From Adhaeribacter aquaticus DSM 16391 (lineage in GTDB: Bacteria; Bacteroidota; Bacteroidia; Cytophagales; Hymenobacteraceae): DNA of 64,000 nt. The position numbers and the translations under genes are program-made. The DNA lies in assembly GCF_000473365.1 (NCBI RefSeq), contig NZ_KI421517.1:1075363-1139362 (forward strand), read 5' to 3'. Below the pieces are notes generated by a model that saw nothing but the letters and a program-made list of their open reading frames with translations, ran no database searches and was not told the origin of the DNA. The stretch's first letter is position 1. Each line of letters opens with the position of its first letter. Below, one piece after another: positions 1-10,770 of the stretch.

Positions 1-1713
1 GGTAGTCCTACCCCAGAATTTAATCAAAAGGTTACCAACGACAAGATTAAAGCGTATATTGATAGCCCCGGAGGTAAACATAAGAAGCTGATAGTAGTGG
101 CTGATAGCCTTCCGCGCGTTATTGAAGCGATTGGTGAAAACGTATACCGCGATTACTTCCTGATGATTGATGAAATCGACGCGTTCCAAAACGACGCAGC
201 GTTCAGGGGTAGTATGGAAAAGAGCCTGGACTATTACAAGAAGTTTCCCCAAACCAATCGAGCATTGGTTACCGCCACGCCGCTTGGGTTCTCCGATCCA
301 GAACTTGAGCATGAACATCAAACTATTATACAGTATGAAACCCCGGTTGGCCGGGATATCGCGCTTATTTACACCGATAATGTTTCTGGCTCAGCATTCG
401 ACCATATCAAAGAACAACTTCAAACAAACCCGGGCCAAAAAATTGCCATCGCCTTCAATTCTGTAACAGGTTGCCGTGGGTTAGCGCAGAAGTTAGAAAA
501 GGACCGCGTTGTTTCTCCTGCCGAAATTAAAATATTATGCAGCACAAGTAGCGAGGAAAGGGTAGGGAAATACTTCGCTGAGCTCACAAATGAGCAGCTC
601 CCGGGCCAGGTAACCTTCTTTACCTCCGCCTATTTCAATGGATTCGACCTGGATGAGCGTTATCACCTGGTGTCTATCTCAGACCCAACATCCCCGATAA
701 CCGCATTATCCGACCATAAACTTAAGCAAATTGCCGGAAGATCAAGGCCAGGCCTACTTTCGGAAACTGTGATTTATGGAACAAGCAAAGAGCTTCCGGA
801 AGAGATCACTGCCGTAGATGAAAAATCTTTAATAAGTGCCGCGGTTGACGAGATCAAAGCGATCGAGTGCTTCGAAATGAATTTCCGAAATAACCCCGTA
901 CTTAAAAATAGTATAAAAAAGATCAGAGAACTGGTGGTAGAAAGGACCCGCCATTTAAAGTATTCCTTGGTACGGTTAGACGCGGATGGTAAACCTCAAA
1001 TATCCTACTTCAACGTAGATGCTTGCCTAGAAACCATAAGGGTAAACAAGGAAGTTTACCAGGACGCGGTGTCGCTAAAGGACCTTTTGGGCAAAAATAA
1101 TAATATAATAGGCTTCCACGTTTCTCATTCAAAAACCGCCATCAAGCATGACCTAAAGAAGGATGGCGAGATCAGGAAACGAAATGCAGAAGAAGCCATC
1201 AACCTACTCAGAACCACGAACTCTAGCGCGCAGCTTTCCCTCTTACTGACTGACCCAACCTTACCAGAACAACAAAAGAAGATTATCAGGGAATATGAGG
1301 CCCTCTACCAATTTATAGACGGGGAACAGCTGCTAGAATCCTTAAAAAACCATTATAACCCGGGTGACGCCAGAGCATGGAACACCTTTAAAAGTGCCGC
1401 TATATTCGCCGCTTACGATGAAAGTCATCCTTTTAAACAAAGAATGAACCGCCACTTCAAGGTTGGTGATAGGTATACCCCAGAGCAAATTCTAAAAAGG
1501 CTTAACGCTGTTTTTGAAGAAGCCCACCTGGGTACCAAGCTAGACAGCCCAGTAATTGCAGTCCGGATGTTTAAGCTCTTTTATGCTACCGTTGTAAAAA
1601 GAAAGAGTGGCAAAAGGGCACAGGAAGTAATATCCGACAATCCCAGGAAGGTAACGGTAACCATGACCATAAAAGACCTTACCACATTTGATCCTGCCCG
1701 TTTCCTTGGATAA
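1..1713 (+). CDS. SF2 (DEAD/DEAH-like) helicase, 5' end outside window
   Basis: The frame is open from base 1, so the N-terminus with Walker A lies left of the window; an internal GTG at 97 is not a convincing start. Visible superfamily 2 motifs are DEID (motif II, near residue 58 of the visible part), a TATP motif III about 45 residues later, and QIAGRSR (motif VI) in a second RecA-like domain. About 300 C-terminal residues match nothing I recognise. Such helicases, often named origin-binding or DEAD-box proteins, occur in Bacteroidota mobile elements beside small replication modules. Role in element replication is inferred from the neighbours; the helicase class is seen directly. Confidence 0.7.
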   Translation, partial: GSPTPEFNQKVTNDKIKAYIDSPGGKHKKLIVVADSLPRVIEAIGENVYRDYFLMIDEIDAFQNDAAFRGSMEKSLDYYKKFPQTNRALVTATPLGFSDPELEHEHQTIIQYETPVGRDIALIYTDNVSGSAFDHIKEQLQTNPGQKIAIAFNSVTGCRGLAQKLEKDRVVSPAEIKILCSTSSEERVGKYFAELTNEQLPGQVTFFTSAYFNGFDLDERYHLVSISDPTSPITALSDHKLKQIAGRSRPGLLSETVIYGTSKELPEEITAVDEKSLISAAVDEIKAIECFEMNFRNNPVLKNSIKKIRELVVERTRHLKYSLVRLDADGKPQISYFNVDACLETIRVNKEVYQDAVSLKDLLGKNNNIIGFHVSHSKTAIKHDLKKDGEIRKRNAEEAINLLRTTNSSAQLSLLLTDPTLPEQQKKIIREYEALYQFIDGEQLLESLKNHYNPGDARAWNTFKSAAIFAAYDESHPFKQRMNRHFKVGDRYTPEQILKRLNAVFEEAHLGTKLDSPVIAVRMFKLFYATVVKRKSGKRAQEVISDNPRKVTVTMTIKDLTTFDPARFLG

Positions 1714-2260
1714 AACCCCCTTAAATAAAACGTATAATAAAATCCAGCTGCCTGCCCATGCTGCCTGCTCATTCTCACCTTAAACATAAACACACAAGAA
1801 CTTCACACTTTCCTAGATATGCAGCGCAGCCGCAGCTTTACCACTTTGACCACTTATCTATTTTTTATTAGGGGGATAAGTGGTCATTACCTACGTACGG
1901 GTACCCAATTTCGAGTTGCGCGCTCACGAGTATGCTCTCCCTATACGGGCTAATATTCCAATCCCACAAGTCAGGAACAACCCGACTGACTGGTAATATA
2001 TGTAATAGCTACCGTGTTCCTTTAATCCTGTCGGAAAGAACGGCTTATTTATCCGACAAGTGAAATCTACTACGCGCATTCGCGTGTATGGTACCTAGCC
2101 AAACACCCCGCCCCTTCGCTCGCCCGACGCCTACCCCCCCGGTGTTTCAATGGCACAATCTAATTCTGGCGCCCTGTAGCCATGTATTTTCCTAGCAAAC
2201 GGAACCTGCCACACCCCAAATAATCCAGTCTGTTCATTTTTCAACCTTAAACCACAGCGT
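1714..2260. other. Non-coding spacer with several inverted repeats
   Basis: About 550 bases without a plausible gene. The spacer holds a perfect 12-base inverted repeat (1847-1886), 6-base arms at 1969-1974/1986-1991, 7-base arms at 2029-2035/2052-2058 and 5-base arms at 2072-2076/2081-2085. The first and third repeats both have 16-base spacers. The 3' part (about 2100-2145) is C-rich. Position between helicase and ATPase genes suits an element replication origin or regulatory region, but this is inference. Confidence 0.45.
1847..1886. repeat. Perfect 12-bp inverted repeat
   Basis: Arms 1847-1858 (TGACCACTTATC) and 1875-1886 are exact reverse complements, separated by an AT-rich 16-base spacer ending in GGGG. 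There is no T-run after it, so a terminator is unlikely. It could be an operator or an origin element. Confidence 0.6.
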
Positions 2261-3157
2261 ATGCAATTACAACCAGCCAATCGCAAGCGGTCCAAGATCC
2301 GGTTGCTCTTACAATCTCCTGCCGGCGGAGGAAAAACTATGAGTGCCTTATTAATAGCTAACGGCATAGCGGGTTCATGGTCAAAGGTCGCCATCGTTGA
2401 TACCGAGAACCGGTCAGCGGATCTTTATTCCGACTTAGGAGCGTATAATGTATTACACCTTTCACCACCGTGTACACCAGAGCGCTTCATTCAGGCAATA
2501 GAAACCTGTGAAAGCGCGGGCATGGAGGTTATCATTTTGGACAGTATTACCCACGAATGGGAATACCTATTGGACTACCATGCCAGTCTTCCAGGAAACT
2601 CGTTTACCGCCTGGAGCAAAGTCACACCACGCCACTCAGCTTTCATCGAAAGGATCCTTCAATCAACTTGTCACATCATTGCTACGGTGCGGTCGAAAAC
2701 AGAATATGCCCTTTCGGAGAAGAATGGTAAACAGGTTCCTGAGAAGTTAGGCATGAAATCTATCCAGCGGGATGGCATTGACTACGAATTCACGGTGGTG
2801 CTGGAGCTGGATCTCAAGCATAATGCCAGTGCATCCAAAGACCGTACCCGCCTGTTTATGGATAAACCTCCTTTCCGGCTAAATGAAGATACCGGCAAGC
2901 AAATTCTAGCATGGTGCACAAGCGGCCACTCTGAAACAGCGCCTTTAGACGATGAGGCCATCCAGCAGCAGGTTAGCCAATGCGCCAGCCTCCCGGAGCT
3001 AACGGCAATCTATTACCGGTGCAATGAGGAGCAAAAAGAAGCGCTCATGCCGGTATTCCAGCAGCAGAAACAATATATCATGCAATCAACGGCACTAACC
3101 AATCAATTACTAAACCAAACAATCAACAACCATGGAACTAATACACGCCCTAGCTAG
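2261..3157 (+). CDS. Sak4-like/AAA_24 P-loop ATPase
   Basis: This 298-residue protein has a Walker A motif (SPAGGGKT, about residues 19-26) and a Walker B strand (VIILDS, about 89-94), followed by a RecA-like core with an ATVRSKTEY stretch. This layout matches the phage AAA_24/Sak4 family, RecA-like ATPases linked to single-strand annealing and recombination in phages and mobile elements. The last 60 residues are glutamine-rich and less conserved-looking. The end overlaps the DUF3871 gene by 26 bases, which suggests co-translation. A function in element recombination or replication is inferred; general P-loop ATPase assignment is firm. Confidence 0.75.
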   Translation: MQLQPANRKRSKIRLLLQSPAGGGKTMSALLIANGIAGSWSKVAIVDTENRSADLYSDLGAYNVLHLSPPCTPERFIQAIETCESAGMEVIILDSITHEWEYLLDYHASLPGNSFTAWSKVTPRHSAFIERILQSTCHIIATVRSKTEYALSEKNGKQVPEKLGMKSIQRDGIDYEFTVVLELDLKHNASASKDRTRLFMDKPPFRLNEDTGKQILAWCTSGHSETAPLDDEAIQQQVSQCASLPELTAIYYRCNEEQKEALMPVFQQQKQYIMQSTALTNQLLNQTINNHGTNTRPS

Positions 3158-4127
3158 AACACAAAATCATTCGATTAGAACAATTAATCAAGAGCTGGAC
3201 CAACAATCCAGCTCTTCTGCTTTTATAGAGGCCAATACGACAGCTGTTCCCTTCCAGGATATACAGCATAACCACATTATCCCGGTGTTTGTTAAGGATA
3301 ATGAGCCGCTCATTAGCCAGTCGGATTTTATCCTGGCTACTCAGGATGCGGTACAGGATCTTTTCCGGGGAGAGACCATTCTCCAGCCACAGATACGGGT
3401 ATCGCACCCTATTAAGGGCCGCATACCGGAAGCCAAAGATAAACCAGCCAGTCAGCTACTGGAATGGGAACGCACCATCTATTATGAGCGGGCTATGTTC
3501 TGCATCGAAATACCAACCATTATGGATGATATTGATGGCAACCGGCTAACCTTGATGGTAGGCGGTGTGAAAGCCTATAACCTGGACAACCTCTATAATA
3601 AAAAAGGGGCGGCCGAGCATTTCAAGATATTCATTGGTTTTAAGAACCTGGTTTGCACCAACCTCTGTGTGCGTACTGATGGGTACAAGGCAGATTTGAA
3701 GGTAGCGAGCCTGGATCAATTACGAAGTGCCATCTACCGCTTAATGGATCAATATGACCAGCACCGGCACCTTAGACAGATGCAGGCGCTGACCGGTTAC
3801 TCTATCACGGAGCAGCAGTTCGCTCATTTGCTGGGCCGTTGCCGCATGTACCAATATCTCCCATCGGAAGAAAAGAAAGCAATCCCGGCACTCCTGTACG
3901 GTGATTCCCAGCTGAATTCGGTATGCCAGGACTACTACAAGGATGCAAGCTTTTGCCGACAGGAAGATGGGAATATTAACCTGTGGCGCTTATACAACCT
4001 GTTTACCGGGGCAAATAAGTCGACCTACATTGATCAGTTCCTAGACCGCTCAGTGAACGCGCTGGATTTCGCCTCACAGGTGCAGCATGCACTGGACGGA
4101 GGCCGTGCCAGTTGGTTCCTAAACTGA
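3132..4127 (+). CDS. DUF3871 family protein
   Basis: The 331-residue product resembles DUF3871, a family seen in Bacteroidota phage-like and integrative elements. The central part has the features I associate with it: a VGGVKAYN stretch near residue 145, then GFKNLVCTNLC near 175, and a C-terminal NLWRLYNLFTGANKSTYID segment ending close to the C-terminus. No catalytic motif is obvious, and no membrane segment or signal peptide is present. The start lies inside the upstream ATPase gene, and a strong terminator follows at 4172, so the two genes probably form a short operon. Molecular function is unknown. Confidence 0.75.
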   Translation: MELIHALARTQNHSIRTINQELDQQSSSSAFIEANTTAVPFQDIQHNHIIPVFVKDNEPLISQSDFILATQDAVQDLFRGETILQPQIRVSHPIKGRIPEAKDKPASQLLEWERTIYYERAMFCIEIPTIMDDIDGNRLTLMVGGVKAYNLDNLYNKKGAAEHFKIFIGFKNLVCTNLCVRTDGYKADLKVASLDQLRSAIYRLMDQYDQHRHLRQMQALTGYSITEQQFAHLLGRCRMYQYLPSEEKKAIPALLYGDSQLNSVCQDYYKDASFCRQEDGNINLWRLYNLFTGANKSTYIDQFLDRSVNALDFASQVQHALDGGRASWFLN

Positions 4128-4171
4128 GAGAGTTTAAACGCTAGAAATTTAAACCCTTGCGTGTCTCTTTT

Positions 4172-4208
4172 GCCGGTTTTCTGAACATTACAGCAAAACC
4201 GGCTTTTT
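4172..4208 (+). terminator. Rho-independent terminator after DUF3871
   Basis: GCCGGTTTTCTG (4172-4183) pairs with CAGCAAAACCGGC (4191-4203; one bulged base), followed by five T. It closes the ATPase-DUF3871 operon. Confidence 0.85.
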
Positions 4209-4232
4209 ACATCATATGGTGTAAGGAAGGAT

Positions 4233-4250
4233 AGGCTCATGGGTGAGCCT
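4233..4250. repeat. 7-bp hairpin upstream of kinase gene
   Basis: AGGCTCA and TGAGCCT are perfect arms around a 4-base loop. It sits in the 224-base spacer before the GC-rich kinase gene, which otherwise shows only a repeated CATATGGTG (around 4214 and 4317). Role unknown. Confidence 0.4.
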
Positions 4251-4432
4251 CCAAAGGCTCTATCACAAACCACTGACTTCCGAATTGATATGAAACAGCA
4301 GTATATACTACTTCCCATATGGTGCGTGCTTCGCCCTAGGCTTAAAAGAATAATGAAAAGCGAACTATTCTAGGTAGATAGTTGTATATTCGGCAGAGGC
4401 GGCCCACGGGATAACAGCGTTTCCAAGAACGC

Positions 4433-5500
4433 ATGCTATCAAGTAACCCCGCACCCGGCTTCCTGGAGTCACTGGCCGAGGGCAGTGACCAAGTGATTTT
4501 CTCCTTTGAGGTGGCCAGCCAGCGGCTCTCCTACCTCAACCCTGCCTTCGAGGAGGTCTGGTCCCAGACCCGCCGGAGCGCCGTGGACAACCCCCAAGGC
4601 CTGCTGGAGACGGTTCACCCCGAGGACCTGGCCTACGTCCGGAAAATATACCGCAATGTGCTTAATGGAAGGATAATCAAGGACGCAGAGTTCCGTATCC
4701 GTACCCACGGCGGCAGGGAGAGGTGGGTCTGCGTCTGCCCACACCTGTCGGAGGACCATTCCTACGTCATGGGCTACGTCAGCGACGTCACCGCCCAGAA
4801 GCACTACAACGACACCCTCAAGAAGTACTCCGACAAGAAGAACTCCATCCTCAACATCCTCTCCCACGACCTGGCCGGCCCCCTGGGCATGATCCACAGC
4901 CTCTCCCAGATGCTGGGCGACGGCAAGGAGGAGGGCGCCCGGGAGATCATCGGCATCATTGAGAAAAGCAGCCGCCAGGGCGTGCAGCTGATCCAGGACT
5001 TCATCAAGCAGGAGTTCCTGGAGTCCTCCGAGGTGAAGCTCATCCGGCGCCGGGTGGACTTGGCGCAGGCCATCCGGGAGTCCATGGAGGAGTACTTGGC
5101 CACCCAGCAGCTGACGGGCAAGACGTTCCGGCTCCACGCCTCCGGGGAGCCGGTGTTCCTGGAGGTGGACGACAACAAGTTCATGCAGGTCATTAACAAC
5201 CTCATCTCTAACGCCATCAAGTTCACCCCTGACGGAGGCCAGATCACCGTAGCCCTGGAGGACAAAGGAGAGACGGTGCTGGTGACGGTGGCCGACACGG
5301 GGGTGGGCATCCCCGAGAGATACCACGCCACCCTATTCGACAAGTTCACCCGCGCCAGAAGGCCCGGCATCAAGGGGGAGCCCTCGGTGGGACTTGGCAT
5401 GTCCATCATCAAAACCATTGTAGAGTGGCACGGCGGCAGGATATGGTTTAAGAGCGCGGAGGGGAAGGGCAGCACCTTCTTCATAGAGCTACCCAGATAG
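4433..5500 (+). CDS. Soluble PAS-domain sensor histidine kinase
   Basis: The 355-residue protein has an N-terminal PAS domain (about 15-120), a HisKA dimerisation domain with phosphoacceptor His145 in the SHDLAGP H-box, and a HATPase_c domain with N-box (INNLISNAIKF, 254-264), G1 (DTGVGI, 288-293) and G2 (GLGMS, 320-324). All catalytic boxes look intact. There is no signal peptide or membrane helix, so it should sense a cytoplasmic cue. No response regulator is adjacent. The gene is strikingly GC-rich, with runs of G/C third positions, unlike the chromosomal genes to the right, which points to acquisition from a GC-richer relative as element cargo. The partner and signal are unknown. Confidence 0.9.
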   Translation: MLSSNPAPGFLESLAEGSDQVIFSFEVASQRLSYLNPAFEEVWSQTRRSAVDNPQGLLETVHPEDLAYVRKIYRNVLNGRIIKDAEFRIRTHGGRERWVCVCPHLSEDHSYVMGYVSDVTAQKHYNDTLKKYSDKKNSILNILSHDLAGPLGMIHSLSQMLGDGKEEGAREIIGIIEKSSRQGVQLIQDFIKQEFLESSEVKLIRRRVDLAQAIRESMEEYLATQQLTGKTFRLHASGEPVFLEVDDNKFMQVINNLISNAIKFTPDGGQITVALEDKGETVLVTVADTGVGIPERYHATLFDKFTRARRPGIKGEPSVGLGMSIIKTIVEWHGGRIWFKSAEGKGSTFFIELPR

Positions 5501-5506
5501 GGCCTT

Positions 5507-5532
5507 ATCCGGAGGGACTATTTCCCCCGGAT
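5507..5532. other. Hairpin between the two kinase genes
   Basis: ATCCGG (5507-5512) pairs with CCGGAT (5527-5532), with an inner GGGA/TCCC extension and one bulge. No T-run follows, so it may be a weak attenuator or an mRNA processing or stability element. Confidence 0.35.
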
Positions 5533-5594
5533 GTTAGTGCCAGTGGCCCCACTCCCAGGGCGCCTATTGTAAAAAGAACCTTCATAACAAAAAA

Positions 5595-8120
5595 GTGATT
5601 ACAGAATACTTTAGTGAACAGAATGGCCCAGGCAGTGCAGCCGGTCCAGCCCAGGACGCAGCCGAACAGGTGGTGCCCGGGAAAAGGCTGGAAGTAAGCG
5701 AGACAAGCCTGGCGGCAGACCTCACGGGGATGCGCCGGCTCTATGAGCTGCAGTCCAAACTGGCACAGCAAACGGACGTAAAGGTGGCCTTCCAGGAAGT
5801 GCTTGCCCTGGCCTGCGTGTTCACCGGTACCGACCGGGGCTGCGTGCAGTTCCTCAGCGATGACAGGAAGCGAATGGAGATGTTCGTCTGGCAAGGGTAC
5901 CCAGATGACAGCCCCTTTATCTCCTTCTTCCGCTACGAGGGCCTGAAAAATGGATGCGAGGTGACGCGTGTTCAGCGGCAGCGCCTGATCATAGAAGAAA
6001 CCGTTGGTTTTGAAGGATTGGCAGGCACTGATGCTGGCGCCGCCACCTACGCAGACGAAATCCGGGCCGCACAGTCCACTCCCATGACGAGCCGCTCTGA
6101 TGAGACAATAGGCGTCATCAGCACCCAGTTCCGCCAGCCGCACCGGCCAAGCGACCACGAGCTGCGCCTGATGGACATGCTGGCTTGGACAGCCGCGGAA
6201 TTCCTGGAGCGCCACCGGGCAGATGCAGCGCTGCGCCATTCCGAAGAACGTTACCGCACGCTGTTTGAGACCATGGATGAGGCCTATGCCGTTATAGAGA
6301 TGCTTTTTGACACGCAAAATAAACCCGTTGATTTTCGCATCCTTGAATGCAATCCCGCATTCGGAAAACTGACCGGACTCCAAAACGCCGCCGGAAAAAC
6401 AGCGCGGGAACTCGTGCCCGAAATTGAACAATTCTGGATAGAGACACACGGCCAAGTGGCTTTGACCGGCGAGCCCACCCGTTACAGCAACCGCGTCGCA
6501 GGACTCCATGACAGGTGGTATGACGGCTATGCTTTTCGCCTCGGCGGCAAGGAAAGCCGCCAAGTCGCCATTGTTTTCAGCGAAATCACCGAGCGAAAAC
6601 GCACCGAGGAAGCCCTGCGCGTAGCTGAGGAGAAACACCGTACCCAGCTTGAGCAGAAAGTAGCCCAACGCACAATTGAATTAATGGAAAGCACCGCCCT
6701 GCTGCAATCCGTATTTGACACTTCTTTAATAGGTATGTCGGTGCTGAAGGCCGTGCGGGACGGAAACGGGGAAATTCAGGATTTCAGCATCCAGCTGGCC
6801 AATAAAAAGCTGCAACGGGAAACCAACCGCCCTGATCTGGAAGGGAAACACTTTGCAGAGGAGTTTCCCGGCATCAAACAGACAGAAATGTTTGAGTTGA
6901 TGCTCAGGGTAGTGGAATCTGGCGAACCGGCCGGCTGTGAGCACCCTTACCGGTACGAAGGTCTGGATAAGTGGTATTCCAGTACATTAGTCAAGCTTGA
7001 TGACGGGCTGGTGATGACCACCCTGAATATTACCTCCCGGAAACAGGCCGAAAAGGAACTGGCCAAAAATCATACGCTGCTCCGACAAGCCGAGCAGGTT
7101 TCTCGCATGGGCAGCTGGGAGTACGACGTGGCCACGGGCGGTTTCGACTGGAGCGAGGGCATGTACCACCTGTTCAATCTACCAACAGGCCAACCGGTGA
7201 GGCCGCAAATCTATCTGGATTTTGTCATTTCAGAAGACCTGCCAAAGGCTGAAAAGATTGTTAAGGATATAGTAAAGCCCCTGCAATCTTTTGAAGAAAC
7301 AATTCGGATCTCAGTGGACGGGCAGGAGGTGACGCTTAAAATCAAAGCAATCGTACAGGAGAATCTTTCGGGCGGAGCCGAAAAAGTACTGGGGGTAGAC
7401 ATGGATACATCGGAGTTGAAGCGGCTGGAGCAGGAGAACCTCTCTATGCGCCTTCAGCAGCAGCAGCAACTCCTGAAAGCCATCCTGGAGGCCCAGGAAG
7501 AAGAAAGTAGGCGTATCTCGGAATCCCTCCACAATGGGGTGGGGCAAATCCTCTACGCCGCCAAACTCAGCCTGGCAAGAGTAGATTTAGATGCGCCCAA
7601 GGCGCAGGAACCCGCGGTGGCAGAAGCCCTCCAGAAGGCAGAGTCCCTGCTTACCGAGGCAATTGTGGAGACCAGGAAGGTATCGCATGAACTGGTACCC
7701 ATCCTGCTCAAAGAATTTGGCCTGCAGCATGCGATTGAGGAATTCTGCAAGCACTTTTCCGTATCCGGGATTAAGCTTGATTGCCACTGCTTCCCAGATC
7801 GACTGCCGGACCATCTGGAGAAGGCCATCTACCGCATGGGTCAGGAACTGATCAATAACATTGTACGGCATTCGGGCGCCACCCAGGCGAACCTGGAGTT
7901 GAGCAGGGACCAGGAACATATTTACCTGGAGGCCCGGGACAACGGCAAAGGCATGGATTGGGGAAGTACCGAAGACGGTAGCCAAAGCAGGGGCATAGGC
8001 ATTCGCACCATCCAGGACCGGGTCAAACTCCTTGACGGGACTGTGGAGGTTGACTCCACCCCCGGTAAAGACACCTTCATCACCATCTGCCTGCCTGCCC
8101 CTGATCGCGCTAGCAATTGA
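5595..8120 (+). CDS. GAF/multi-PAS histidine kinase of the HisKA_3 (NarL-partner) type
   Basis: An 841-residue cytoplasmic kinase starting with GTG. Order of domains: GAF (about 45-215), three PAS modules (about 220-335, 370-480, 490-610), a glutamine-rich helix, a HisKA_3 domain with phosphoacceptor His646 in SLHNGVGQ, and HATPase_c with N-box (QELINNIVRHS), G1 (DNGKGMD) and G2 (GIGIRT). HisKA_3 kinases normally phosphorylate NarL/LuxR-type regulators, yet none is nearby. The second PAS and the catalytic tail resemble the kinase at 34453-38295. It follows the other cargo kinase by 94 bases, is also GC-rich in its 5' half, and probably travels with it. Signal unknown. Confidence 0.9.
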   Translation: MITEYFSEQNGPGSAAGPAQDAAEQVVPGKRLEVSETSLAADLTGMRRLYELQSKLAQQTDVKVAFQEVLALACVFTGTDRGCVQFLSDDRKRMEMFVWQGYPDDSPFISFFRYEGLKNGCEVTRVQRQRLIIEETVGFEGLAGTDAGAATYADEIRAAQSTPMTSRSDETIGVISTQFRQPHRPSDHELRLMDMLAWTAAEFLERHRADAALRHSEERYRTLFETMDEAYAVIEMLFDTQNKPVDFRILECNPAFGKLTGLQNAAGKTARELVPEIEQFWIETHGQVALTGEPTRYSNRVAGLHDRWYDGYAFRLGGKESRQVAIVFSEITERKRTEEALRVAEEKHRTQLEQKVAQRTIELMESTALLQSVFDTSLIGMSVLKAVRDGNGEIQDFSIQLANKKLQRETNRPDLEGKHFAEEFPGIKQTEMFELMLRVVESGEPAGCEHPYRYEGLDKWYSSTLVKLDDGLVMTTLNITSRKQAEKELAKNHTLLRQAEQVSRMGSWEYDVATGGFDWSEGMYHLFNLPTGQPVRPQIYLDFVISEDLPKAEKIVKDIVKPLQSFEETIRISVDGQEVTLKIKAIVQENLSGGAEKVLGVDMDTSELKRLEQENLSMRLQQQQQLLKAILEAQEEESRRISESLHNGVGQILYAAKLSLARVDLDAPKAQEPAVAEALQKAESLLTEAIVETRKVSHELVPILLKEFGLQHAIEEFCKHFSVSGIKLDCHCFPDRLPDHLEKAIYRMGQELINNIVRHSGATQANLELSRDQEHIYLEARDNGKGMDWGSTEDGSQSRGIGIRTIQDRVKLLDGTVEVDSTPGKDTFITICLPAPDRASN

Positions 8121-8191
8121 TGGCTCAAATTTGGCAGGAATCGCAAACCCCCGGGTGCAAAATCCAATTCACAGTGCCGGCGAATACTTTT

Positions 8192-9310
8192 CTACAACTC
8201 CGGCATCATTGAGCTTTCTACCTGTATTGCGCCGATACTTCGCAAATAGATCAAGCTGGTATTCAGATTGGAGTGCCCGAGCAGTTGCTGGAGCAGCTTC
8301 AGGTTTTGGGTTCTCGTAAACACGTTTACCGATGCTGCATGGCGGAAGCTATATAACGTCTGCTTCGGTTGTAGTAATCCAAGATCTAGCATCTTCGTCT
8401 TCGCACGTGACCACATGGTATTAAAATAGCACTCGTTGAATGGCTCCAAGCACCTGGTGAATATATTCTCATCCGGCAAGAGATCGCCAATACATCTTTC
8501 CACCAATTCTTGTCGGACAAAATCCGGTATCGGCAAACTTCTGATCCTGCCGCTCTTGTTCTCTTTCCCGTCAAGAGAGAAGCAGGTAAAGTGTTCATCG
8601 AAATGTTTGCGCTTAAGCAACCTGATCTCCCGGTGGGGCCGCAATAAAGTCCCGTACATCAATAAAGCGCACAAGTACAAGTGCGGAAAATTTTCCTTTA
8701 AATACTGCAATACCGGTGCAAGTTGCTCGGGAGTATAAGCCTGATGCAGCACCGCTTTCGCTCTACGCTTTGTCGTTTCCAGCACTGGATTAGTCTTACA
8801 ATATCCTTGTTTTAGAAGCCGAGAAAAAACCGCCCCAAGGGTTCGACGTTTGTTCTGGTAATAAGTCCCGGAAGAGGAAAACCGTTTTAAGAAGCGCTCT
8901 ATATCTGCGGTAACGATCTCATCCGGTAGCGCACCTTTCCGGTCCTCAGCCACCAGGAAATCAGAGAAACTTTCAACCACCTTCAGGATATCCCGGCGAT
9001 AAACGCTGCTGTATGAACCACCTTCAATATCCTGAGCAACCTGGTTGAGCAATTGAATAAGTGGTTGCTTCTGTACTGGGGTTTTAACCTCCTCCGGGGT
9101 CCATCCCGAAAGGAGCGCTTTGATATAGCCTCGGACTAGCTGCTTTAACAACCGCTCTCGTGCTGCCAGTGTATCGCAGTTATTGGGCATACAATTGATT
9201 CCTATTGCTTTCCCGTTGTAGAACCGGTAACGCTTACCGGAGTAGTAAAAGGTGATGTAAGCCCGCTGACTTAGATCATGCAGGTTGACAATCTTTGGAT
9301 CTGTGAACAT
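8192..9310 (-). CDS. Tyrosine recombinase / site-specific integrase
   Basis: The 372-residue protein has an N-terminal core-binding (SAM-like) domain (about 80-180) and a C-terminal phage-integrase catalytic domain. Catalytic residues visible are the first Arg in LLRPHREIRLL, the second Arg in YSFRHAAS (the usual upstream His is Tyr here), the LLGHSNL His, and the nucleophile Tyr in the downstream TSLIYL segment. It reads away from the adjacent tRNA-Phe fragment and converges on the kinase gene 71 bases away. It very likely catalyses integration and excision of the element at tRNA-Phe. Base composition lies between cargo and chromosome. Confidence 0.9.
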   Translation of the reverse strand: MFTDPKIVNLHDLSQRAYITFYYSGKRYRFYNGKAIGINCMPNNCDTLAARERLLKQLVRGYIKALLSGWTPEEVKTPVQKQPLIQLLNQVAQDIEGGSYSSVYRRDILKVVESFSDFLVAEDRKGALPDEIVTADIERFLKRFSSSGTYYQNKRRTLGAVFSRLLKQGYCKTNPVLETTKRRAKAVLHQAYTPEQLAPVLQYLKENFPHLYLCALLMYGTLLRPHREIRLLKRKHFDEHFTCFSLDGKENKSGRIRSLPIPDFVRQELVERCIGDLLPDENIFTRCLEPFNECYFNTMWSRAKTKMLDLGLLQPKQTLYSFRHAASVNVFTRTQNLKLLQQLLGHSNLNTSLIYLRSIGAIQVESSMMPEL

Positions 9311-9401: not shown

Positions 9402-9465
9402 CAGTTGGTAGAGCAAAGGACTGAAAATCCTTGTGTCGTTGGTTCGATTCCAATCATCACCACCA
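9402..9465 (+). tRNA. tRNA-Phe (GAA) 3' fragment, attachment-site remnant
   Basis: From the D-loop onward the sequence is a good tRNA-Phe: D-loop and GAGC half-stem (9411-9414), anticodon arm with loop CTGAAAA (9421-9427, anticodon GAA), T-arm GTTGG/CCAAT around TTCGATT, acceptor CATCACC, discriminator A and encoded CCA. The 5' part is wrong: bases upstream do not pair with the acceptor, and the 5' D-stem half reads TTCC instead of GCTC. The gene is thus cut at about 9402, as expected when an element inserts into the tRNA and carries a replacement 3' end. The intact copy should be at the other element end. It is unlikely to be functional. Confidence 0.85.
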
Positions 9466-9471
9466 ACTGAA

Positions 9472-9505
9472 AAAAACCTCCTAGTAAAAACTGGGAGGTT
9501 TTTTT
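9472..9505 (+). terminator. Original tRNA-Phe terminator
   Basis: AACCTCCTAG pairs with CTGGGAGGTT (one G-U) around loop TAAAAA, with a T-run after it, starting seven bases after the CCA end. Confidence 0.85.
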
Positions 9506-9858
9506 ATGCCCTTTTTTCCCAGACAACCTTCTCAATAGTTAGTTTATAATTCACCTTTAAAACTGAATCTAAAAATTTAATTGCTGGCATTTCACCCCTT
9601 ATTTCTTATTCTAATAATAGAACCAGCTAATTTTATCTAAAATTTACTACCTATTTTTCCTTTACTTTAATTCCCAGCCTTTCAACCCCAATAAGCAAAA
9701 AAGAATATGTCAGTTGATCTTACTTCTTCTCCTTTCAAGGTATTTAAGTGGCTATACGGATGTAATTCCGTACTTATCCGGGAACGTCCAATAATACTCC
9801 GCGTATTAGGTTCATTTGTATTAAGCATTTTTTACCACTTTACCCTAAAAGTAAAACT
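9506..9858. other. AT-rich spacer before isoaspartyl peptidase
   Basis: The 353 bases after the tRNA terminator hold no convincing gene; the only open frame of note (from 9707) runs into and overlaps the next gene out of frame. The spacer presumably carries the promoter of the downstream gene. Confidence 0.4.
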
Positions 9859-10770
9859 ATGGCCCAAAACTTTGTACTTGTTATACATGGCGGAGCAGAA
9901 GATAAAACCCGCGAAGATATAAGCCCGGAAAAAGAGGCAGGATATAGAAAAGGGCTGGAAGAAGCTTTAGATGCCGGTTATCAAATTTTAAAAGCTGGTG
10001 GTTCAGCTATAGATGCCGTGGAAGCGGCTGTTATATCTATGGAAAACAATCCATTATTTAATGCCGGTAAGGGTGGCGCCTTAACCATAAAAGAAAGCCA
10101 TGAGTTTGATGCCGCCATTATGGACGGTAAAACCTTACATGCCGGAGGAGTAGCAGGAGTTAAATCAGTTAAAAATCCTATAAAACTTGCCCGCACTATT
10201 ATGGAAAAAAGTGAGCATGTTTTAATTGGTGGCGATGGAGCAACTGCGTTTGCCAAAGAACACAACTTGCAAATAGTGCCAGAGGCTTATTTTACCACCG
10301 AAGAAAAATTAGAAGATGTAAAAAAACAAAAACAGAACCAACTAAAACACACCAGTAAAGATACAGTAGGTGCTGTAGCCTTAGATATACATGGCAATTT
10401 AGCTGCTGCTACCTCTACCGGTGGCCTTACCGGCCAACATGAAGGGCGCATAGGAGACAGCCCGATTATTGGCTGCGGCACTTACGCAAACAATGAAGTG
10501 TGTGCTGTTTCCTGTACCGGCGACGGTGAAAGCATTATAAGAGGCACCGTGGCGCATGAAGTATATGCACTGGTAAAATACAAAGGACTATCTATTACAG
10601 AAGCGGCAGCCCAAGCTATTCGGTTATATAAAGATAAAATAGAAAAAGACCGGAATTTGATTGCCTTAACGCCAAACGGCGACATTGCAATGGAGTTTGA
10701 GACCGAACTAATGTTTAGAGGCTACCGCAAAGGTGATGAGGCTCCTTATATTGCAATTTGGGAGGATTAA
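9859..10770 (+). CDS. iaaA: Isoaspartyl peptidase / plant-type L-asparaginase
   Basis: This Ntn-hydrolase of 303 residues hydrolyses isoaspartyl dipeptides and L-asparagine after autocleavage. The cleavage site and nucleophile are in the KDTVGAVALD segment, with Thr169 becoming the N-terminus of the beta chain. Further family motifs are GGAE near residue 11, NAGKGG (68-73), GRIGDSPIIGCGTYA and the CTGDGE oxyanion-region motif. There is no signal peptide, so a cytoplasmic role in asparagine or damaged-peptide turnover is likely. It stands alone and ends back-to-back with the DnaJ/TPR gene. Confidence 0.9.
   Translation: MAQNFVLVIHGGAEDKTREDISPEKEAGYRKGLEEALDAGYQILKAGGSAIDAVEAAVISMENNPLFNAGKGGALTIKESHEFDAAIMDGKTLHAGGVAGVKSVKNPIKLARTIMEKSEHVLIGGDGATAFAKEHNLQIVPEAYFTTEEKLEDVKKQKQNQLKHTSKDTVGAVALDIHGNLAAATSTGGLTGQHEGRIGDSPIIGCGTYANNEVCAVSCTGDGESIIRGTVAHEVYALVKYKGLSITEAAAQAIRLYKDKIEKDRNLIALTPNGDIAMEFETELMFRGYRKGDEAPYIAIWED

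Follow-up and report, generated by a model that had tools for sequence, protein, structure and literature searches.

A 10,143-bp element at tRNA-Phe of Adhaeribacter aquaticus with helicase, Sak4-like ATPase and DUF3871 genes: a probable helper-dependent integrative element

We analyzed 64,000 nucleotides of the genome of Adhaeribacter aquaticus DSM 16391 (hereafter the window; C1:1,075,363-1,139,362 in an assembly of 5.17 Mb and four contigs). At its left end lies a compact element of six genes, encoding a predicted superfamily 2 (SF2) helicase, here called HEL, a Sak4-like ATPase, a DUF3871 protein, two histidine kinases and, on the opposite strand, a tyrosine recombinase. The element spans 10,143 bp, which is the spacing of two 115-bp direct repeats, 99% identical, at tRNA-Phe (the left and right attachment sites, attL and attR). 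Only 742 bp of it lie left of the window; the rest is within. Its features are as follows, in window positions except for attL.

Contig 1,074,621-1,074,735: attL, 115-bp direct repeat, starting 742 bp left of the window
1-1713, plus strand: HEL, SF2-fold helicase, C-terminal 570 of 653 amino acids (aa); its open reading frame (ORF) starts 249 bp left of the window
1714-2260: 547-bp stretch between the HEL and ATPase genes, with no internal ORF longer than 51 aa
2261-3157, plus strand: Sak4-like P-loop ATPase, 298 aa (AAA_24, 8.9e-18; phrog_1366, 1.7e-75; phrog_124, 1.6e-7)
3132-4127, plus strand: DUF3871 protein, 331 aa (PF12987, 2.7e-119; 398.2 bits against a cut-off of 27)
4433-5500, plus strand: PAS-HisKA-HATPase histidine kinase, 355 aa, cargo (Pfam)
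5595-8120, plus strand: GAF-PAS-HisKA_3-HATPase histidine kinase, 841 aa, cargo (Pfam)
8192-9310, minus strand: tyrosine recombinase/integrase, 372 aa (Phage_integrase, 2.1e-9; phrog_1 integrase, 4.7e-30)
9402-9516: attR, 115-bp direct repeat, consisting of the 3' part of tRNA-Phe and a terminator-like stretch

Genes and boundaries of the element

The full HEL ORF of 653 aa starts at contig position 1,075,114 (L011:7114), and the sequence from the window edge leftward to the repeat holds the helicase start as its sole gene content. attL begins inside the intact tRNA-Phe (L011:6609-6684), located 0.7 kb left of the window, and continues through a terminator-like stretch. ARAGORN detected no tRNA in the window, because the copy at 9402 is the 3' part of tRNA-Phe only. 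The ATG of the DUF3871 gene lies 26 bp inside the ATPase gene, so that the two genes overlap. In the 547-bp stretch we noticed by eye an 11-bp perfect inverted repeat (1848-1858/1875-1885), and Rfam had no match there; the stretch could be an origin or a terminator.

Pfam identifies both kinases as PAS/GAF histidine kinases. The G+C content, in bins of one kilobase, was 54-59% over the kinases, 44-45% over the helicase and 33-45% over most of the flank to the right. By this measure the kinases resemble later cargo. Their use as diagnostic cargo was rejected, since relatives of the larger one were found at E <= 1e-30 in 196 of the 204 genomes of the family.

A preliminary description, made from the window sequence, had listed a helicase, a Sak4-like ATPase, DUF3871, kinases and a recombinase, and all of these genes are present. 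Its extent of 1-9310 fits the gene list and falls short of the element at both ends, as the right repeat ends at 9516 and the window edge cuts the helicase. It had also reported no relaxase or virion genes, and had pointed to capsid, portal or relaxase genes just outside the window as a sign of an ordinary prophage or conjugative element. No relaxase, capsid, portal or terminase gene was found between the att repeats, including the 742 bp outside the window, where there is no room for relaxase, primase or virion genes. Pfam searches with all six proteins gave no relaxase domain, no relaxosome or conjugation family, and no AlpA or primase domain; the element thus does not qualify as a conjugative element or as a canonical integrative and mobilizable element (IME). 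Nor does it qualify as a prophage, as no capsid, portal, terminase or tail family was matched by the six proteins in Pfam, by four of them in PHROG or by the smaller kinase in a pooled PHROG scan.

To the left of tRNA-Phe lie a gene for a 456-aa Fe-S oxidoreductase-like protein and others, and to the right of the element an asparaginase-like gene, followed by a DnaJ-like gene, 124-aa and 194-aa ORFs and a PcrB-like gene (names by eye on both sides). tRNA-Phe adjoined the Fe-S gene in all 15 Pontibacter genomes compared (G160 and G178 left out). In 14 of them the DnaJ-like gene followed tRNA-Phe at 245-998 bp, which gives a homologous site without such an element. The fifteenth (L250, G152:C12:349,000-355,000) had no DnaJ-like match within 6 kb of tRNA-Phe and no match to the window's type of integrase in that stretch; it possibly carries another insertion at this site. 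The asparaginase-like gene of the window (9859-10770) stands between attR and the DnaJ-like gene, where the 14 Pontibacter genomes have the DnaJ-like gene within 1 kb; therefore, the flank itself has also changed.

The other seven genomes from the genus of the window likewise have tRNA-Phe adjoining the Fe-S gene, with neither the asparaginase gene nor the window's integrase in the 1-3 kb to its right. One of the seven, G004, is nevertheless occupied by a 12.8-kb sister element whose integrase lies beyond that stretch, so the comparison within the genus does not show empty sites. In L219, from genome G002 of the same genus, a small excisionase-like ORF downstream of tRNA-Phe (5147-5416; by eye) hints at yet another element at that place.

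The length, identity and tRNA position of the repeats, together with the element-free homologous sites in relatives, are more than chance. With its integrase, flanking att repeats and an element-free site in relatives, the window carries a site-specific integrative element. This element is complete, and we consider it probable that it depends on a helper for its transfer.

The helicase and the ATPase-DUF3871 pair

No model was matched by the HEL fragment of the window (Pfam, NCBIfam and PHROG) or by the full 653-aa protein (Pfam and PHROG), and 7 of 17 HEL relatives matched Pfam DEAD. The AlphaFold2 model from 17 sequences (predicted local distance difference test score, pLDDT, 84.6) resembled Prp2 (Z 19.8, 310 residues, 4.0 Å), and a profile search of the PDB gave weak DEAD-box rows only. 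The model suggests that HEL has an SF2 core of two RecA-like domains. In the alignment the columns DE, AT and Q..GR.R of motifs II, III and VI are conserved.

The P-loop of the window's HEL, KTETGIGATT, lies left of the window edge and has no Walker A lysine. We compared 33 distinct HEL sequences from the loci that bear this region, after correction of L163 and L188 by eye and removal of the window duplicate and two partial sequences. None had the Walker A lysine, the position being occupied by Ala (20), Gly (10), Leu (2) or Met (1), and all 33 had a lysine seven residues upstream (in the window, Lys42 against position 49). Each HEL that was read thus deviates from a defining motif, a biochemical oddity that can be tested. 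Our guess from the alignment is that Lys42 may do the work of the missing lysine.

The DUF3871 model (pLDDT 86.4) matched 22 viral models in BFVD at E <= 0.001 with a probability of 1.00 and a query template-modelling (TM) score of 0.37-0.56, and 8 of these were named DUF932 or TIGR03299. The model therefore suggests a fold like that of the DUF932/TIGR03299 proteins of phages and plasmids, although sequence identity was only 6-14% and the Pfam DUF932 profile did not match the window protein. Foldseek against the PDB gave no match at E <= 0.001. A further structure comparison gave middling VIA rows (best Z 6.7; C-terminal domain of TnsE, 5.2), and a PDB sequence match to a coat protein (E 0.12) was taken as chance. 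The upstream ATPase matched the Sak4 profile phrog_124 and, far better, phrog_1366, a family of unknown function. Because a Sak4-like ATPase adjoins, a role in annealing or recombination seems the likeliest for DUF3871.

DUF3871 was present in 25 of the 204 family genomes; genome contigs gave 388 relatives, of which the best 80 were retained. Among the loci collected, a Sak4-like ATPase stood within two genes upstream in 66 of the 107 distinct DUF3871 genes. The preliminary description gave DUF3871 no known function. The gene has gained a setting from two leads, namely its place in an overlapping pair with the Sak4-like ATPase and its DUF932-like predicted fold. In the open-licence literature searched, DUF3871 came up in one paper.

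HEL was seen in nine loci of this DUF3871 set; the search had missed a fragment in L083, and L206 was added later, giving 11 loci with both genes. HEL was upstream of DUF3871 on the same strand in nine (L011, the window's own locus, L083, L160, L163, L165, L171, L173, L178, L206) and on the opposite strand in two (L122, L136). The ATPase lay between them in five of the nine (L011, L083, L163, L165, L206). In L083, a 4.25-kb faecal scaffold, the order was the helicase end, an 89-aa ORF, the ATPase, DUF3871 and a RadC-like gene (RadC by eye). The preliminary description had suggested looking for recurrence of the set, and helicase, ATPase, DUF3871, integrase and tRNA-borne att repeats were indeed found together in L165 and L206.

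The ATPase-DUF3871 pair also occurs outside HEL elements, near SOS repair genes. A second pair in the same genome (L012:13984-15853; C4:33,984-35,853) is on a 110-kb contig with a ParA-like gene; downstream of the pair we read by eye a short ORF resembling RadC, then genes resembling UmuD and UmuC. UmuD/UmuC-like genes were also seen by eye near some other DUF3871 loci, and RepA-like AAA_25, BT4734-like or PriCT_2 proteins occurred at some (three representatives scanned). In viral contigs, the single DUF3871 protein as query found no relatives and the alignment as query found nine, the viral status of some of these contigs being doubtful. One such doubtful contig, L173, has DUF3871 near transposase-like and gyrase-like ORFs (by eye).

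The integrase backbone and bounded HEL elements in the Bacteroidota

Relatives of the window's integrase at E <= 1e-60 were found in 6 of the 204 family genomes, the window's included. All six elements occupy the same tRNA-Phe with the same left flank, and the integrase is 58-64% identical to those of its five Hymenobacteraceae sisters. The sizes are as follows.

Window: 10,143 bp
G004: 12,763 bp
G160: 19,349 bp
G178: 19,700 bp
G133: 19,651 bp
G145: 19,974 bp

The five sister elements have exact repeats of 54-125 bp, the repeat of G133 covering the 5' half of the tRNA. They share integrase lineage, site and left flank with the window's element, but four are about twice its size and none matched HEL or the window's ATPase at 1e-8, so that HEL and the ATPase are confined to the window's element in this series. 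DUF3871 was present in four of the six, and a VapE-like protein in three (PF05272 in G133 and G145; a tblastn match in G004). Seven proteins of the sister elements were scanned with Pfam and their remaining genes were judged by eye, which revealed UmuD/UmuC-like ORFs in two. The series thus presents different replication-type modules on one integrase backbone. The window's element combines this local backbone with a HEL-ATPase-DUF3871 cassette that also occurs in distant Bacteroidota.

HEL relatives are rare: 5 of the 204 family genomes have one at E <= 0.001, and so do 12 of 395 genomes sampled from the phylum at E <= 1e-6. We examined 23 loci for att repeats, 12 from the HEL/DUF3871 searches and 11 from the phylum draw that were not our own locus; L163, L122, L136 and L083 lie outside this set. 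Direct repeats spanned HEL in 12 of the 23 (8 of 12 and 4 of 11, respectively), delimiting elements of 5.1-14.5 kb, and 10 of the 12 were at tRNA genes (Phe, Lys, Met, Asp, Gly, Ser, Thr). Small elements that hold HEL recur, with the following repeat spacings.

tRNA-Lys: L079, 9,680 bp; L088, 9,994 bp; L209, 11,007 bp
tRNA-Ser: L205, 10,533 bp; L206, 12,088 bp
Other tRNAs: window (Phe), 10,143 bp; L082 (Met), 5,050 bp; L160 (Asp), 14,492 bp; L165 (Gly), 9,463 bp; L210 (Thr), 6,478 bp
Without tRNA: L080, 5,237 bp; L081, 6,543 bp

Of the 12 bounded elements, 11 have an integrase that was marked by our integrase profile. As the profile was built from 14 loci that include eight of the 12, it is circular for those eight; L206, L209 and L210 are independent matches, and L205 was missed. 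L205 has a 427-aa ORF in the integrase place, which was assigned through PHROG integrase matches in a pooled scan that does not name the member. The smallest elements, L082 and L080, contain little besides HEL, integrase and one larger gene. The twelve elements contain 50 accessory proteins of 100 aa or more, among which were RadC (four members), GmrSD, NACHT, PIN, DUF3732/ABC-3C, resolvase and similar families. Several of these are defence-like, with LmuB- and LmuC-like proteins in PADLOC. No virion or relaxase family was among the matches listed, which were the best 25 of 34 Pfam and 25 of 31 PHROG families; the others were single-member families weaker than 7.2e-6 and 5.8e-7, respectively.

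The HELs of L160 and L171 are 84% identical and their integrases 46%, and L160 lies at tRNA-Asp whereas L171 lies beside tRNA-Ser. This suggests that the cassette recently moved from one integrase backbone to another. A SIR2-like ORF was read by eye in L171.

Proposed movement of the element and comparison with known systems

The element has several contacts with phages. HEL relatives are encoded by Psychrobacter phage D'Alembert, Acinetobacter phage Phab24 and Edwardsiella phage ET-ABTNL-9 (about 90-94 kb each) and by large viral contigs; the ATPase belongs to phage protein families, and the predicted fold of DUF3871 is like that of phage DUF932. HEL, DUF3871 or both are present in six unannotated scaffolds from Mexican faeces that are recorded as "Bacteriophage sp." (L083, L084, L085, L223, L224, L225), L085 having DUF3871 only. 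L223 has HEL next to an integrase, and its opposite end holds TerL, TerS and HNH genes. Country, sample type and a 4-kb minimum fit the study PMC8361208, from which we infer that the scaffolds come; that study describes a particle-enriched, DNase-treated virome, and no accession numbers of the scaffolds were seen in its text.

L223 also bears on another explanation, in which the window's element is what decay or domestication has left of a prophage or of a larger integrative element, with only early genes and cargo kept and mobility lost. A prophage early region with HEL, integrase and terminase genes on one scaffold could shrink to such a form, and the other five members of the integrase lineage are larger (12.8-20 kb). 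Decay is also seen in relatives: L081 has HEL split in two ORFs within its att-bounded element (L081:8600-10680), and L214 has a HEL fragment beside transposase-like ORFs. The window's own ORFs are open, however, and both att copies are kept at 99% identity. There was no internal stop in the 13 HEL matches listed from the phylum draw, one frame being only 170 aa, and decay would hardly yield similar bounded elements at 12 loci with diverse integrases and sites. We regard a remnant as improbable.

HEL is found on plasmids as well. Fifteen plasmid records matched, 9 of them typed mobilizable (one opened), and 13 records were of Acinetobacter. In one mobilizable-typed Acinetobacter plasmid (L089, NZ_CP123920.1) the HEL relative is followed by an AAA ATPase and a recombinase, an order that may be a distant parallel of the cassette. 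The preliminary description had proposed a satellite or an integrated cryptic plasmid, and the latter would use HEL as replication initiator and the integrase as a maintenance device. The compact size, the helicase, the 547-bp stretch with its perfect inverted repeat after HEL and the plasmid-borne relatives would suit it. The element has no Rep initiator or partition domain (six proteins in Pfam, four in NCBIfam), and tblastn against 72,556 plasmid records gave no match over 80% of HEL. The "plasmid" records of Bacteroides finegoldii were set aside as evidence for circles, as the two larger records contain numerous housekeeping-like genes and resemble chromosome contigs. We consider an integrated plasmid very improbable.

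The mobilizable-typed plasmids agree with a relaxase-less mobilizable island of the mobilizable genomic island (MGI) type, which would be excised by its integrase and transferred by a resident conjugative element that recognizes an origin of transfer (oriT) on the island. A relaxase is not needed for this, and such islands are described (PMC5704250). The six proteins gave no relaxosome or conjugation family in Pfam, however, and the remaining links of HEL, ATPase and DUF3871 lead to phage proteins. We view this route as unlikely, if worth keeping in mind.

For the helper-dependent integrative element that we favour, the following course may be proposed. The sequence shows insertion by the tyrosine recombinase into the 3' end of tRNA-Phe, after which the tRNA was still intact and the other end of the element had a copy of 115 bp. 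The same recombinase would excise the element as a circle. HEL would then open or load onto the element's own DNA, and the overlapping Sak4-like ATPase and DUF3871 may act as a strand-annealing or recombination pair that, with HEL, replicates the element or joins it to the recombination-driven replication of a helper. Because the element has no recognizable transfer genes of its own, it would leave in a helper, most likely a phage particle and less likely a conjugation system acting in trans. It is perhaps a phage satellite, a term that is compatible with the evidence and unproven. As for its origin, a HEL-ATPase-DUF3871 cassette may have been put onto the tRNA-Phe integrase backbone that carries VapE or other modules in relatives, the direction of this swap being our inference, with the two kinases as cargo.

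Several points weigh against this proposal. The five sister elements manage without HEL, so HEL is not essential to the tRNA-Phe backbone, and the loss of the Walker A lysine could mean that HEL is not an active ATPase. No repeat was found around HEL in 11 of the 23 loci, namely L171, L178, L173, L084, L207, L208, L211, L213, L214 and L215, and L212, which has neither tRNA nor recognized integrase and is counted in the denominator without a repeat search. L208, L211 and L213 do have an integrase beside a tRNA, and L211 ends with its contig. The distances of HEL showed no correlation with those of the integrase (Mantel r 0.11; at least this value in 968 of 9,999 permutations; 18 pairs, with L081, L136, L178, L205 and L215 left out). 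Co-inheritance of the two genes is therefore not supported; they do not form one inherited unit and the modules have been shuffled. The six faecal scaffolds have no terminal repeats and may possibly derive from contaminating cellular DNA. L087, a Bacteroides contig with HEL, has no annotated integrase within +-15 kb, and the HEL relatives in the 13 Acinetobacter plasmid records likewise occur away from integrases. That HEL and integrase became associated several times points to a function of benefit to such elements, not to common descent of the whole unit.

More tentatively, and with considerable doubt, we suggest that the window's element belongs to a class of minimal integrative elements, helper-dependent and so far undescribed, that spans the phylum. 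The class would be defined by HEL and not by the integrase, with the HEL motif K-x-x-x-G-x-G-[AGLM]-[TS] in which the P-loop lysine has moved seven residues upstream, a helicase shared with tailed phages that would start replication. Unrelated tRNA-targeting integrases would have taken it up repeatedly, the helicase would often recruit the Sak4-like/DUF3871 annealing pair, and the elements would travel as phage satellites. No description of these elements was found in titles and abstract openings of the open-licence literature, and the replication and movement of many small islands without transfer genes are called an open question in PMC11389934. Since the window's element is complete and small with four non-cargo genes, each can be deleted and tested.

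Among known systems, the satellites called phage-inducible chromosomal minimalist islands (PICMI) are likewise small integrase-bearing islands with direct repeats, no capsid genes and few core genes for excision and replication (PMC10803314). The models given there require AlpA, a DUF3987/DUF5906 primase and integration at fis, whereas the window's element has no AlpA or primase and no known helper phage, and instead carries helicase, ATPase and DUF3871 at tRNA-Phe. Tycheposons share the tRNA border, the tyrosine recombinase and variable cargo; the first two, which the window's element also has, do not by themselves separate tycheposons from other islands. In the consulted part of PMC10872708 they are described from Prochlorococcus and Methylophilaceae with sizes of 4-200 kb, and HEL or DUF3871 is not mentioned. 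For the Bacteroides IMEs NBU1 and Tn4555, PMC5704250 gives MobP relaxases. The relaxase-less mobilizable islands and IMEs treated in the same paper resemble the window's element in being helper-dependent integrative islands without conjugation genes, and differ in that the known ones use oriT in trans.

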